Shown: positions 57,165 through 61,311 of the stretch, one piece after another
Layout: every line of letters starts with the position of its first letter
How positions within the stretch are numbered: position 1 is the first letter of the stretch
NCBI RefSeq assembly: GCF_001294455.1
Contig: NZ_LIKT01000003.1
Span: forward strand, 124,001-188,000
Reading direction: 5' to 3'
From: Phaeobacter sp. 11ANDIMAR09
GTDB lineage: Bacteria; Pseudomonadota; Alphaproteobacteria; Rhodobacterales; Rhodobacteraceae
DNA length: 64,000 nucleotides
Position numbers and translations under genes: made by a program
Notes under the pieces: model-generated
Database searches by the model: none
Seen by the model: the letters and a program-made list of their open reading frames with translations, nothing else
What the model was told of the DNA's origin: nothing

Positions 57165-57195
57165 TTGGTCGACCAAGGCAGATTTGGTCGACCAA
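57165..57195. promoter_or_regulatory. two identical 12-bp palindromes TTGGTCGACCAA
   Basis: Perfect palindromes at 57165-57176 and 57184-57195, seven bases apart (19 bp start to start), in the gap between trxB and the cyclase gene. The half-site TTGGT / ACCAA resembles operators of GntR/FadR-type (FCD) regulators. The two copies could also pair with each other in RNA. No run of T follows, so a terminator role is less likely. Confidence 0.6.
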
Positions 57196-57300
57196 GCCCA
57201 AGCTCTGTCGTCAGCCCCTATTTTTTACCGTTTGAAACGCCTTGACCTGCCCAAAGACATCCGGGCACCCTGCTCGTGTGTAACCGAAAGGGTCTTTGGC

Positions 57301-59022
57301 GTGACACATGTGCTCTGGCGGGGAGATTTTGTTCAGCGCAGTCGCACCGTTAGTGGTGTCTTCCTGCTCCTGTACGCATTCCTTCACTTTCTGAACATTG
57401 CCGCAGGTCTGATTTCCCCGGAGGTCATGTATCAGGTTCAGGAGTTCCGCAGGCTGCTTACCGGTCACCCGCCGGGTCAGATCCTGCTGTTTTCCGCACT
57501 CTTGGTGCATATCGGTCTGGCGCTCTGGCAGGTGGCCAGCCGTCGGACCCTCCGCATGAGCCTGGCCCAGGGCCTGCAACTGATCTTGGGGCTCGTCATT
57601 CCTCTGCAGCTGATCCAGCATCTTGTTTTCACCAGCTATGCCTCCAACATCCATGGGCTGGATGATGACATGACCTCGATCATATTGCTGATGTGGAATT
57701 CCCCCGAAGTCTGGCAGCAATATCTGTTGCTGTTGGTGGTCTGGGTGCATGGCTGTATTGGCCTGCACATGTGGCTGCGGATCACCAGCTGGTGGCGGCC
57801 GCTTCTCCCCTATATGATTGGCCTGGCGACCCTGGTGCCGACTTTGGCACTGGCAGGTCTTTTGACCGAAGGGCGCCGCATCTGGGCAATCTTTAGCCGC
57901 CCTGGAAACGCCCCCGTAATACGTGACAGTTTTAACTGGCCTGACAATACCGGCTTTGCCCGCTTGTTTGAGATCTACAACCTCAGCTTTTGGATCTTCC
58001 TGATTCTGCTGGGCAGTGCGGTGGCAACCTTTTATTTGCGCAGGATCATTCGCAAGCGGAACTCACTGCAAATCCGCTATGAAAACGGCACCCAGATCAC
58101 GATTGAACACGGGCTGACTCTGCTGGAAATCTCTCAGCTCAACGGTATTCCCCATACCTCGCTCTGCGGCGGCAAGGGGCGCTGCACCACCTGTCGGATC
58201 GAAGTGACCAAGGGTCTGGAGGGCCTGCCACCGCCCAGCCCGGCAGAAGCGCGTACACTAAAGGCCATCAAGGCCCGAGAAAATGTCCGCCTGGCCTGCC
58301 AAATCCGGCCCAGCACCTCGCTCTCCATTCAACGGGTCTATCAGCCCAAGGGGCGCCGCCAGGTGCATTCGGCGCAGGGAGTCGAAAAAACCATCGCGGT
58401 GCTGTTTTTGGACATTCGCGGCTTCACCGCCCGCTCTGCTGGACTGCTGCCCTATGACATCGTCTTTCTGCTGAACAGGTTTTTTGACGCAATAGTGCCC
58501 GAAATCACTAAGGCTGGAGGCACCGTGGACAAATACATGGGAGATGGGCTGCTCGCCCTATTTGAGATGGACGAGCCGGAGCATTCGGCGCAGGCCGGGA
58601 TTGCCGCTGCCTGCAATATCGGCGTGGCTCTGGCGCGGTTTAACAGGCTGCTTGCTTCCGAAGGCGAAGACCCAGTCCACATCGGCATGGGTCTGCACAC
58701 TGGCACCGTGGTTCTAGGCGAAATTGGCACCACCGAGAATGCCCCCCGCACCCTGATCGGCTCAGCTGTGAATGCGGCCAGCCGCTTAGAGGCCAAGACC
58801 AAGGATCTGGGGGTTGAACTGCTGATCTCCGAATTGGTGATCCAGGCGGCAGGCCTATCGGCGCCACTGGGGATGATGCAGGATTTCACCCTGCGCGGTG
58901 TGGACCACCCGGTCCGCGCCCTGCCCGTCGCCCAGGCCGCAACGCTGGAGGGCATGCTGACACCCCAGACGGATCCCGAGGTCACCACCTTTGCACCCGC
59001 GACCTCTGGCCGAGCAACCTGA
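57301..59022 (+). CDS. membrane adenylate cyclase with cytochrome-b-like anchor and [2Fe-2S] domain
   Basis: 573-residue class III nucleotidyl cyclase. N-terminal anchor with about six TM helices bearing His29, His70, His107 and His150/His156 at helix positions suited to two b hemes, as in succinate dehydrogenase-type anchors and S. meliloti CyaC. Then a [2Fe-2S] ferredoxin domain (Cys289-x5-Cys295-x2-Cys298...Cys333). Catalytic domain: metal Asp371 and Asp415, adenine-specifying Lys411 and Thr484, Asn491 and Arg495 (VNAASR), which predicts cAMP, not cGMP, and the class IIIb Lys/Thr pair. Start GTG 57301 with GAAAGGG eight bases upstream; a TTG at 57184 lies inside the palindrome pair. Input is probably quinone or redox state (inferred). 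Confidence 0.9.
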   Translation: MTHVLWRGDFVQRSRTVSGVFLLLYAFLHFLNIAAGLISPEVMYQVQEFRRLLTGHPPGQILLFSALLVHIGLALWQVASRRTLRMSLAQGLQLILGLVIPLQLIQHLVFTSYASNIHGLDDDMTSIILLMWNSPEVWQQYLLLLVVWVHGCIGLHMWLRITSWWRPLLPYMIGLATLVPTLALAGLLTEGRRIWAIFSRPGNAPVIRDSFNWPDNTGFARLFEIYNLSFWIFLILLGSAVATFYLRRIIRKRNSLQIRYENGTQITIEHGLTLLEISQLNGIPHTSLCGGKGRCTTCRIEVTKGLEGLPPPSPAEARTLKAIKARENVRLACQIRPSTSLSIQRVYQPKGRRQVHSAQGVEKTIAVLFLDIRGFTARSAGLLPYDIVFLLNRFFDAIVPEITKAGGTVDKYMGDGLLALFEMDEPEHSAQAGIAAACNIGVALARFNRLLASEGEDPVHIGMGLHTGTVVLGEIGTTENAPRTLIGSAVNAASRLEAKTKDLGVELLISELVIQAAGLSAPLGMMQDFTLRGVDHPVRALPVAQAATLEGMLTPQTDPEVTTFAPATSGRAT

Positions 59023-59170: not shown

Positions 59171-59199
59171 TTGACTTTGCATTTGCAGCAATTTATGAG
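59171..59199 (+). promoter_or_regulatory. promoter of the MarR-EPS/Sat-CysC gene
   Basis: TTGACT (59171-59176), 17-nt spacer, TATGAG (59194-59199): good -35, fair -10. The predicted start of transcription falls within the palindrome that follows, leaving about 30 nt of leader. Confidence 0.6.
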
Positions 59200-59221
59200 A
59201 TGTGTTCACTCATGAACACAT
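59200..59221. promoter_or_regulatory. operator-like palindrome before the MarR-EPS/Sat-CysC gene
   Basis: Perfect nine-bp arms ATGTGTTCA and TGAACACAT with a CTCA spacer, directly after the -10 and 15 bp before the start codon at 59236. Size and place fit autorepression by a MarR-type winged helix. Confidence 0.65.
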
Positions 59222-59235
59222 ATTGAAAATCAACC

Positions 59236-61311
59236 ATGCCTTCGCCTGAAACAAACCCAAACCCAGATGAGGAAGATCTGCTCTTCCGCCTCCTGCGCCA
59301 GTTCGATCTGGAGCCGGAAGCCTCGCAGCGCGCTACCGCTGCTGCGCTGGGGATCTCTTTGGGCGGGCTCAACACTCAACTGCGCGCAGCCGCCGAGGCC
59401 GGTCTGATCACAATTAGCGACCGCCCCGGCCCGGATAAACGGCAACGCTATGCCTACACATTGACCCGCCGGGGCGCTTCAGAAAAGCGCCGCCTCGCCG
59501 ATCAATTCCTTTCCCGCAAGCTCGCTGAGTACAACGCGCTCCATGCGGAACTCACTGGTACAGCAAGCGGCCTGCCACACATTAAACACAGGACTCATCC
59601 AATGCAGAACAATCTGGCCCCCATCCCCGAGCTCTACGTCTCTTATGACTCCGCTCAAAAACTGAAAGTCGAGGCCGGCGAGCTGAAAAGCCACGACCTG
59701 ACACCGCGCCAGATTTGCGATCTGGAACTCTTGATGAACGGCGGCTTCAACCCGCTGAAAGGCTTCCTGTCCAAGGAAGACTATGATGGCGTTGTTGAAA
59801 ACATGCGCCTTGCGGATGGTTCCCTCTGGCCTATGCCAATCACTCTGGATGTCTCCGAAGACTTTGCCGCCAGCCTGGAAGCCGGTGAGGACATCGCCCT
59901 GCGTGATCAGGAAGGCGTAATCCTGGCCACCATGACCGTCACCGATAACTGGGTGCCCAACAAATCGCGTGAAGCCGAAAAAGTCTTTGGCGCCGACGAT
60001 GATGCCCACCCCGCAGTCAACTATCTGCACAACCAAGCCGGCAAGGTCTACCTCGGCGGCCCGGTAACCGGCATCCAGCAGCCTGTGCACTATGATTTCC
60101 GCGCCCGCCGCGACACTCCAAACGAAATGCGCGCCTATTTCCGCAAGCTGGGCTGGCGCAAAGTTGTGGCCTTCCAGACCCGCAACCCCCTGCACCGCGC
60201 CCATCAGGAGCTGACCTTCCGCGCCGCGCGGGAAGCCCAGGCCAACCTGCTGATTCACCCCGTTGTTGGCATGACCAAACCCGGCGATGTTGACCACTTT
60301 ACCCGCGTCCGTTGCTACGAGGCGGTTTTGGACAAATACCCTGCCTCCACCACCTCGATGAGCCTCTTGAACCTGGCAATGCGTATGGCCGGCCCCCGCG
60401 AGGCCGTCTGGCATGGTTTGATCCGCAAAAACCACGGCTGCACCCATTTCATCGTTGGCCGCGACCACGCAGGCCCCGGCAAAAACTCTGCCGGTGAAGA
60501 CTTCTATGGCCCCTATGATGCCCAAGACCTGTTCCGCACCCATGAGGAAGAAATGGGTATCGAAATGGTCGACTTCAAACATATGGTTTGGGTCTCGGAA
60601 CGCGCCCAATATGAAGCTATCGACGAGATCGAAGACAAGGATGATGTCACCATCCTCAACATTTCGGGCACCGAGCTGCGCCGCCGCCTGGCCGAAGGTC
60701 TGGAAATCCCTGAGTGGTTCTCTTTCCCCGAAGTTGTCGCCGAGCTGCGCAAAACCAAGCCACCACGCTCCAAGCAGGGCTTCACCGTCTTCTTCACAGG
60801 TTTCTCGGGCTCCGGCAAATCCACCATTGCCAATGCTTTGATGGTCAAGCTGATGGAAATGGGCGGCCGCCCCGTGACCCTGCTGGATGGTGACATCGTG
60901 CGTAAAAACCTTAGCTCCGAACTGGGGTTCTCAAAAGAGCACCGCGATCTCAACATTCGCCGTATCGGCTATGTGGCCTCGGAAATCACCAAAAACGGTG
61001 GCATCGCCATCTGCGCGCCCATTGCGCCCTATGCCACCACCCGTCGCGCCGTGCGTGAAGATGTGGAGCAATTTGGTGCCTTTGTCGAAATCCATGTTGC
61101 CACCTCGATCGAAGAATGCGAGCGCCGCGACCGTAAGGGTCTGTACAAGCTGGCCCGCGAAGGCAAGATCAAGGAATTCACCGGGATCTCTGACCCCTAT
61201 GACGTGCCTGCCAGCCCCGAGCTGAGCGTTGAGACCGAAAATGTTGAGGTCGACAACTGCGCGCATCAGGTTCTGCTCAAGCTGGAAAACATGGGTCTGA
61301 TCGCAGGTTGA
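59236..61311 (+). CDS. MarR-EPS regulator domain fused in frame to sulfate adenylyltransferase / APS kinase
   Basis: One uninterrupted frame of 691 codons. Residues 1-108 are a complete MarR-type winged helix of the EPS-associated kind (LLFRLLRQFD...SQRATAAALGISLGGLN...RYAYTLTRRGASEKRRLADQFLSRKLAEYNAL). After a 14-residue link, residue 123 onward is the 569-residue Sat-CysC bifunctional enzyme: Sat motifs QTRNPLHRAH (314-323) and GRDHAGPG (408-415), CysC P-loop GFSGSGKST (522-530) and DGDIVRKNL. It makes APS then PAPS from sulfate. An internal ATG (59602) with AGGA upstream could start the enzyme alone. No stop codon separates the parts. Confidence 0.9.
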   Translation: MPSPETNPNPDEEDLLFRLLRQFDLEPEASQRATAAALGISLGGLNTQLRAAAEAGLITISDRPGPDKRQRYAYTLTRRGASEKRRLADQFLSRKLAEYNALHAELTGTASGLPHIKHRTHPMQNNLAPIPELYVSYDSAQKLKVEAGELKSHDLTPRQICDLELLMNGGFNPLKGFLSKEDYDGVVENMRLADGSLWPMPITLDVSEDFAASLEAGEDIALRDQEGVILATMTVTDNWVPNKSREAEKVFGADDDAHPAVNYLHNQAGKVYLGGPVTGIQQPVHYDFRARRDTPNEMRAYFRKLGWRKVVAFQTRNPLHRAHQELTFRAAREAQANLLIHPVVGMTKPGDVDHFTRVRCYEAVLDKYPASTTSMSLLNLAMRMAGPREAVWHGLIRKNHGCTHFIVGRDHAGPGKNSAGEDFYGPYDAQDLFRTHEEEMGIEMVDFKHMVWVSERAQYEAIDEIEDKDDVTILNISGTELRRRLAEGLEIPEWFSFPEVVAELRKTKPPRSKQGFTVFFTGFSGSGKSTIANALMVKLMEMGGRPVTLLDGDIVRKNLSSELGFSKEHRDLNIRRIGYVASEITKNGGIAICAPIAPYATTRRAVREDVEQFGAFVEIHVATSIEECERRDRKGLYKLAREGKIKEFTGISDPYDVPASPELSVETENVEVDNCAHQVLLKLENMGLIAG
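59590..59604 (+). promoter_or_regulatory. internal ribosome binding site and start codon for Sat-CysC
   Basis: AGGA at 59590-59593, eight bases, ATG at 59602-59604 (MQNNLAPIPELYVSYD, the usual N terminus of stand-alone Sat-CysC in this group). It suggests the enzyme may also be made alone. Confidence 0.6.

Follow-up and report, generated by a model that had tools for sequence, protein, structure and literature searches.

A MarR-type winged helix fused to the bifunctional sulfate-activating enzyme Sat-CysC in Rhodobacteraceae: a predicted autoregulatory trigger enzyme

Why does a complete sulfate-activating enzyme share its reading frame with a DNA-binding domain, and what might this domain control? 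The question is raised by a gene of Phaeobacter sp. 11ANDIMAR09, located on the forward strand at positions 59236-61311 of the window, by which we mean the whole stretch of 64,000 nucleotides that was analysed. The gene is a single open frame of 691 amino acids with a calculated mass of 77.2 kDa. An earlier note, made from the letters of this DNA, had described it as a winged helix (residues 1-108) joined to the whole 569-residue sulfate adenylyltransferase/APS kinase (Sat-CysC), and this description holds: the frame is open from ATG to stop and the domain matches agree. The fusion itself, purifying selection on both of its halves, a conserved palindrome in front of the gene and a conserved internal start were found by computation. 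A complete enzyme joined to a DNA-binding domain, as found here, is the arrangement that characterises trigger enzymes. The answer we favour, and consider fairly probable, is that the gene encodes an autoregulatory trigger enzyme which controls its own production, with DNA binding, repression and an effector as predictions.

The winged-helix domain (wHTH) comprises residues 1-108 (59236-59559, forward strand, as for all parts of the gene). With the N-terminal part as query, Pfam HTH_24 matches residues 15-59 of the 691-aa protein (5.8e-6). The NCBIfam model TIGR04176 (MarR_EPS) matches residues 12-107 with 83.7 bits for the N-terminal part and 79.2 bits for the whole protein, the better score being about 4 bits short of the cut-off of 88 bits. 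The domain is MarR_EPS-like, close to the threshold of that family but below it, and no cluster of exopolysaccharide genes was seen among the window genes tested. Modelled alone by AlphaFold2 (pLDDT 87.2), the wHTH ends in a long last helix (residues 78-107), and its best Foldseek match is a MarR regulator (23 matches at E<=0.001, query-normalised TM-scores of 0.46-0.60). On the basis of this model, the domain has the winged-helix fold of the MarR superfamily with a long last helix. The AlphaFold2 model of the full-length 691-aa protein is poor (pLDDT 52).

A linker (residues 109-122; 59560-59601) leads from the sequence ELTG at the end of the wHTH to the enzyme (59602-61311), which has 569 amino acids and a calculated mass of 63.7 kDa when counted from its own start codon, the ATG at 59602. 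The model of the bifunctional Sat/CysC enzyme, NF004040, matches residues 121-690 with 1046.5 bits against a cut-off of 669, and the match spans model positions 4-571 of 572. The motifs QTRNPLHRAH, GRDHAG, GFSGSGKST (P-loop) and DGD, the catalytic motifs of both halves of Sat-CysC, are all present, and their columns are invariant across 47 fused proteins, bar one P-loop position (residue 523). As judged from sequence, a complete bifunctional sulfate adenylyltransferase/adenylylsulfate kinase, predicted to be active, stands behind the DNA-binding domain. Two known structures, the Aquifex bifunctional Sat/APS kinase (2gks) and the Penicillium ATP sulfurylase (1i2d; organism names in part after PMC4220642), have the same domain order and cover 540-548 residues of the query; they differ in that their matches start at query residues 150 and 142, respectively, and do not cover the wHTH. 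A search against the PADLOC defence library gave no match.

Both halves of the fusion are under purifying selection. Across 47 aligned fused genes, pN/pS is lowest in the enzyme (0.13), followed by the last helix of the wHTH (0.16), the wHTH core (0.23) and the linker (0.34). Furthermore, ELTG and the internal start are separated by 14 residues in 86 of 86 loci. Because these ratios are low and the length of the linker is fixed, the wHTH appears to be translated and maintained.

The fusion is widespread in the family. When 60 genomes were searched, the own genome among them, the fused frame turned up in ten other members of the genus and in four genomes from other genera. In a scan of named genomes, frames of at least 692 aa run into the enzyme in all 80 kept loci (the best 80 of 311 relatives), from genera which include Pseudophaeobacter, Roseobacter, Leisingera, Shimia, Aliiroseovarius and Roseovarius. 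A profile of the wHTH gave 90 listed rows at E<=3.4e-44 among 394 Rhodobacteraceae genomes. Of these rows, 88 are full frames of at least 690 aa and two (G067 and G415) are cut by contig ends; all other listed rows have E-values above 1e-32, and their frames measure 119-335 aa except in G331. The fusion was hence counted in about 91 of the 394 genomes (88 full, two at contig ends and one divergent, namely G331), or about 23%. The methionine of MQNNLAPIP, regarded in the earlier note as the normal start of Sat-CysC, is therefore not the sole norm. Among the matches listed for 142 genomes drawn from the class, a long fused frame was found only in the two Rhodobacteraceae genomes. A frameshift or a lost stop in the own assembly, which the earlier note had considered, is ruled out by the same frame being open in over 100 other loci. 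No description of a wHTH-Sat-CysC fusion was recognised in those parts of the open-licence literature that were searched, an absence which is no proof.

The history of the fusion was approached by two trees. In a quick tree of 41 wHTH rows, a branch with an SH-aLRT of 92 separates the 23 fused rows from the others; long branches call for caution in this tree. The second tree, built from Sat-CysC sequences (87 fused, 39 unfused), shows 23 label changes as drawn, and its well-supported branches force only one; repeated gain or loss of the wHTH is not supported by this tree. Since many Rhodobacteraceae genomes do without the wHTH, control by it seems to be dispensable. Some single loci deserve mention at this point. 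The 713-aa frame of G331 (locus L231) starts at 866 and joins Sat-CysC to a divergent wHTH through a longer linker; it is preceded by two GTTCA-N4-TGAAC sites, at 829 and 854, which are 25 bp apart. Here a related regulator may have been fused to this enzyme independently, for a second time. Long open frames are also present in L232 and L233, but no wHTH can be recognised in them. The fused gene also occurs in a record with the title Nocardioides marinus DP1N28-1 (L064), which is placed with Leisingera by the Sat-CysC tree; the assembly is probably mislabelled or contaminated.

The fused frame contains a second start. As the earlier note had pointed out, the internal methionine (residue 123, ATG at base 59602) has a Shine-Dalgarno sequence of its own, AGGA at 59590-59593 on the forward strand, which includes the AGG codon of Arg119. 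This arginine codon is AGG in all 84 parsed loci (86 were examined, L108 and L112 not being parsed), compared with 0.56% of the other arginine codons, and among 18 further distinct loci it is AGG in 17 and CGG in one. The start codon itself is ATG in 74, GTG in nine and TTG in one of the 84 parsed loci; GTG makes up 42% of valine codons in these genes, and for independent loci nine GTG out of nine would have a chance probability of 0.0004; the loci are not, however, fully independent. For the pairing with the 16S tail, the predicted medians are -2.2 kcal/mol at the first start and -4.0 kcal/mol at the internal start (84 loci each), and -5.0 kcal/mol at the start of unfused genes (39 loci). Because the pairing is weaker at the first start, we infer the free 64-kDa enzyme to be the major product; the DNA-binding form of 77 kDa would then probably be the minor one. 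The two products proposed in the earlier note are likely, given the conserved internal start and the reality of the fusion, while DNA binding by the longer one has the standing of a prediction.

What the earlier note missed, besides the breadth of the fusion, is a palindrome upstream of the gene. This putative operator, the perfect 22-bp inverted repeat ATGTGTTCA-CTCA-TGAACACAT (59200-59221, without strand), ends 14 bases upstream of the first start codon at 59236. All 80 named fused loci (the best 80 of 311 relatives) have its core, GTTCA-N4-TGAAC, in exact form, as do the window and five further loci, which makes 86 of 86. Another 20 fused loci, most of them low in the ranking, contain two genomes that had been counted before and 18 distinct loci; of these 18, 17 have the exact core and the remaining one (G116) has one mismatch. 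Overall, 103 of 104 distinct fused loci share the exact core; L225 and L226 were left out of this number as repeats of L127 and L119, and L205, L234, L235 and L231, outside the 104, are also fused and have exact sites. For comparison, 40 loci were fetched as unfused, of which L205 proved to be fused and the other 39 are without wHTH according to tblastn. None of these 39 has the exact core within 500 bp of the enzyme start, and one of them (L194) has a site with one mismatch 471 bp from it. In the sequences of the loci compared, the palindrome and the wHTH are present together and absent together. The distance between the end of the palindrome and the first start codon has a median of 19 bp (5th-95th percentile 14-33) in 84 parsed loci; the upstream alignment parsed 84 of 86 loci, and the two others (L114 and L119) are exact in the separate count. 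A candidate promoter region (59175-59199, forward strand) consists of a CTTTGC box (59175-59180) and a YATG-type element adjoining the operator, both conserved over 84 aligned upstream regions. A simple sigma-70 scan upstream of the fused gene detected no promoter-like site.

According to the reading we favour, the one frame would yield a 77-kDa winged-helix form of the enzyme, probably minor, and the free 64-kDa enzyme, started at the internal ATG behind AGGA. Through its winged helix, the long form would bind ATGTGTTCA-N4-TGAACACAT at the promoter of its own gene and, repression being assumed rather than activation, would lower the transcription of this gene. The DNA-binding state is expected to follow a ligand of the attached enzyme (sulfate/ATP, APS or PAPS), free subunits would mix with the long form in oligomers of both, and the sulfate-activating enzyme would be made to match the need. 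The CysH protein of the own genome (L136) has CC and CxxC motifs like those of APS reductases. Because of these motifs, APS may be a branch point between cysteine and sulfation, and PAPS may in that case be used for sulfation and not for making cysteine. APS or PAPS is a sensible guess for the effector, since the related fungal ATP sulfurylase is regulated by PAPS according to two reports (PMC3734648, PMC4220642).

The fused protein could also activate its own transcription, for instance when PAPS is needed, which we hold to be unlikely. Among MarR-type proteins both activators and repressors are known, and an upstream region in which no sigma-70 promoter was recognised would be in line with activation. 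However, the palindrome lies downstream of the CTTTGC and YATG elements and a median of 19 bp before the first start, a position at which a block is more natural.

A different target was proposed in the earlier note, according to which the regulator would control exopolysaccharide genes and tie sulfate activation to the synthesis of a polysaccharide. The resemblance of the wHTH to MarR_EPS and two Sulfotransfer_3 matches in the own genome argue for this proposal, and so does the position of unfused sat-cysC copies among polysaccharide genes on plasmids of Roseobacter and Sulfitobacter. The genes around the fusion argue against it. In the window, the near neighbours are an Lrp-type gene, a thioredoxin reductase gene (trxB), a cyclase, PhzF and HSP20, and the sole glycosyltransferase near the fused gene is a weak family-10 match, located downstream on the opposite strand. 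No polysaccharide cluster was detected in 20 further large ORFs of the window (26 of 45 listed ORFs were tested, the fused one included); about 40 kb separate the fused gene from a phosphomannomutase gene and one of the DAHP-synthase type. Within about 4 kb and three genes on each side of 86 fused loci, we found thioredoxin reductase at 44, cyclase at 33, an Lrp-type regulator at 29 and glycosyltransferase-10 at 16 loci, and a polysaccharide cluster is not a common neighbour. The proposed link to a polysaccharide locus thus found no counterpart in the window genes tested or in the common surroundings of fused loci.

The genome-wide distribution of the palindrome bears on the same point. The pattern YGTTCAN4TGAACR is present in 40 of 40 fused genomes scanned; a site is located at the fused gene in 39 of them and is the sole site of the genome in 23, which speaks against the control of exopolysaccharide genes. 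In total, 63 sites on one strand are opposed to 11 matches of a reversed control pattern. On the other hand, 24 of the 63 sites are away from the fused gene, more than the 11 control matches, and given this surplus the fused regulator may have further targets. The neighbours of such sites were inspected in the own genome, where the two other sites both lie inside coding frames. With regard to all these results, control of exopolysaccharide genes appears very doubtful. In another genome (G253), a second pattern site is located just upstream of its stand-alone wHTH relative.

Two observations on the surroundings are added here. The gene before the fusion (57184-59022) encodes a 2Fe-2S ferredoxin domain together with an adenylate/guanylate cyclase domain, and 33 of the 86 fused loci have a relative of it nearby. 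The unfused plasmid copies of sat-cysC stand among polysaccharide genes on plasmid pTB2 of Roseobacter denitrificans (L227) and on a plasmid of Sulfitobacter pontiacus (L228), in the latter case with a sulfotransferase in the cluster. This suggests a supply of PAPS for sulfated polysaccharide, and the plasmid context may hint at the origin of the wHTH regulator, but it is no evidence for control of polysaccharide genes by the fused protein.

It is also conceivable, at a slightly lower probability still, that the wHTH has lost DNA binding and only aids folding or assembly, and that a separate MarR-type protein binds the palindrome. A second wHTH relative at E<=1e-15 is indeed present in 12 of 90 fused genomes, but none was found in the other 78 among the candidates scored (up to 11 per genome), which makes the fused protein the likely binder. 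The joint presence and absence of palindrome and wHTH and the purifying selection on the wHTH also speak against a separate binder. Relatives outside the fusion show a related motif: of 33 non-fused wHTH loci, 20 are preceded within 250 bp by an exact GTTCA-N4/5-TGAAC, compared with a shuffled rate of 0.05%. In 19 of these 20 the spacer is N5, and these 19 belong to other families; of five stand-alone relatives from Rhodobacteraceae, only L018 has the motif. In its distribution, the motif fits the wHTH superfamily better than the nearest stand-alone members. The MarR_EPS (TIGR04176) proteins and the wHTH relatives with a further C-terminal part thus resemble the fusion in the wHTH and the upstream motif, and differ from it in being stand-alone or in having a C-terminal part without a Pfam name (two tested). 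In other families of Alphaproteobacteria (L140-L163, e.g. L141, L149, L155), the same type of wHTH heads proteins of 200-340 aa. GTTCA-N5-TGAAC precedes the gene at 19 of these loci; at 14 of the 19 it occurs in two or more copies, which are 22-24 bp apart in ten; in the two proteins tested, Pfam named only the wHTH.

That the upstream part is merely an untranslated leader and only the 569-residue enzyme is made, as the weak Shine-Dalgarno sequence of the first start might suggest, is highly improbable and was rejected in view of the protein-level selection across the wHTH and its last helix, the linker of 14 residues in 86 of 86 loci and the frame being open in over 100 loci.

Returning to the autoregulatory trigger enzyme, a more specific version can be put forward tentatively, which we rate as possible but well short of probable. 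Regulator and antagonist would come from one frame at a set ratio: the long form would read the adenylate intermediate, APS or PAPS, in the active sites of its own enzyme part and switch the promoter, and the short form would dilute the DNA-binding heads in mixed oligomers. Operator, head and internal start would then make up a single cassette, whose parts occur or are missing together in the loci compared, and G331 may contain a second fusion that arose independently.

Known enzymes with a regulatory head allow a comparison. The enterobacterial NadR consists of a helix-turn-helix domain, an NMN adenylyltransferase and a ribosylnicotinamide kinase. The fusion resembles it in the order of an N-terminal DNA-binding domain, a nucleotidyltransferase and a kinase and in acting, as proposed, on its own pathway, whereas its enzyme halves are ATP sulfurylase and APS kinase; NadR is not known to have a conserved internal start. 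BirA, a winged helix joined to biotin ligase, likewise has its DNA-binding domain on an enzyme that makes an adenylate intermediate, and it represses its own pathway. It differs in its target, the bio operon, and in its ligand control, which is established for BirA and predicted for the Sat-CysC fusion. PutA resembles the proposed behaviour of the fusion as an enzyme repressing transcription of its own operon, while its DNA-binding fold and its chemistry are unrelated. In layout, NadR and BirA are closest to the fusion. NadR is reported to target the genes of NAD biosynthesis and salvage and in several genomes nadR itself (PMC5343134); BirA is described as the repressor of the bio operon, and PutA of Salmonella as both proline dehydrogenase and repressor of the put operon (PMC6978683).

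Owing to its conserved double start, the gene is a clean case for studies of how regulator and enzyme are dosed against each other from one frame. Few enzymes are known to carry their own repressor head, the usual examples being BirA, PutA and NadR. If our reading is true, sulfate activation would be a new case of an enzyme of this kind, and an enzyme sensing APS or PAPS at the APS branch point would be a natural control. It would give a testable answer to the question of how a large number of marine Rhodobacteraceae set the first step of sulfate use.
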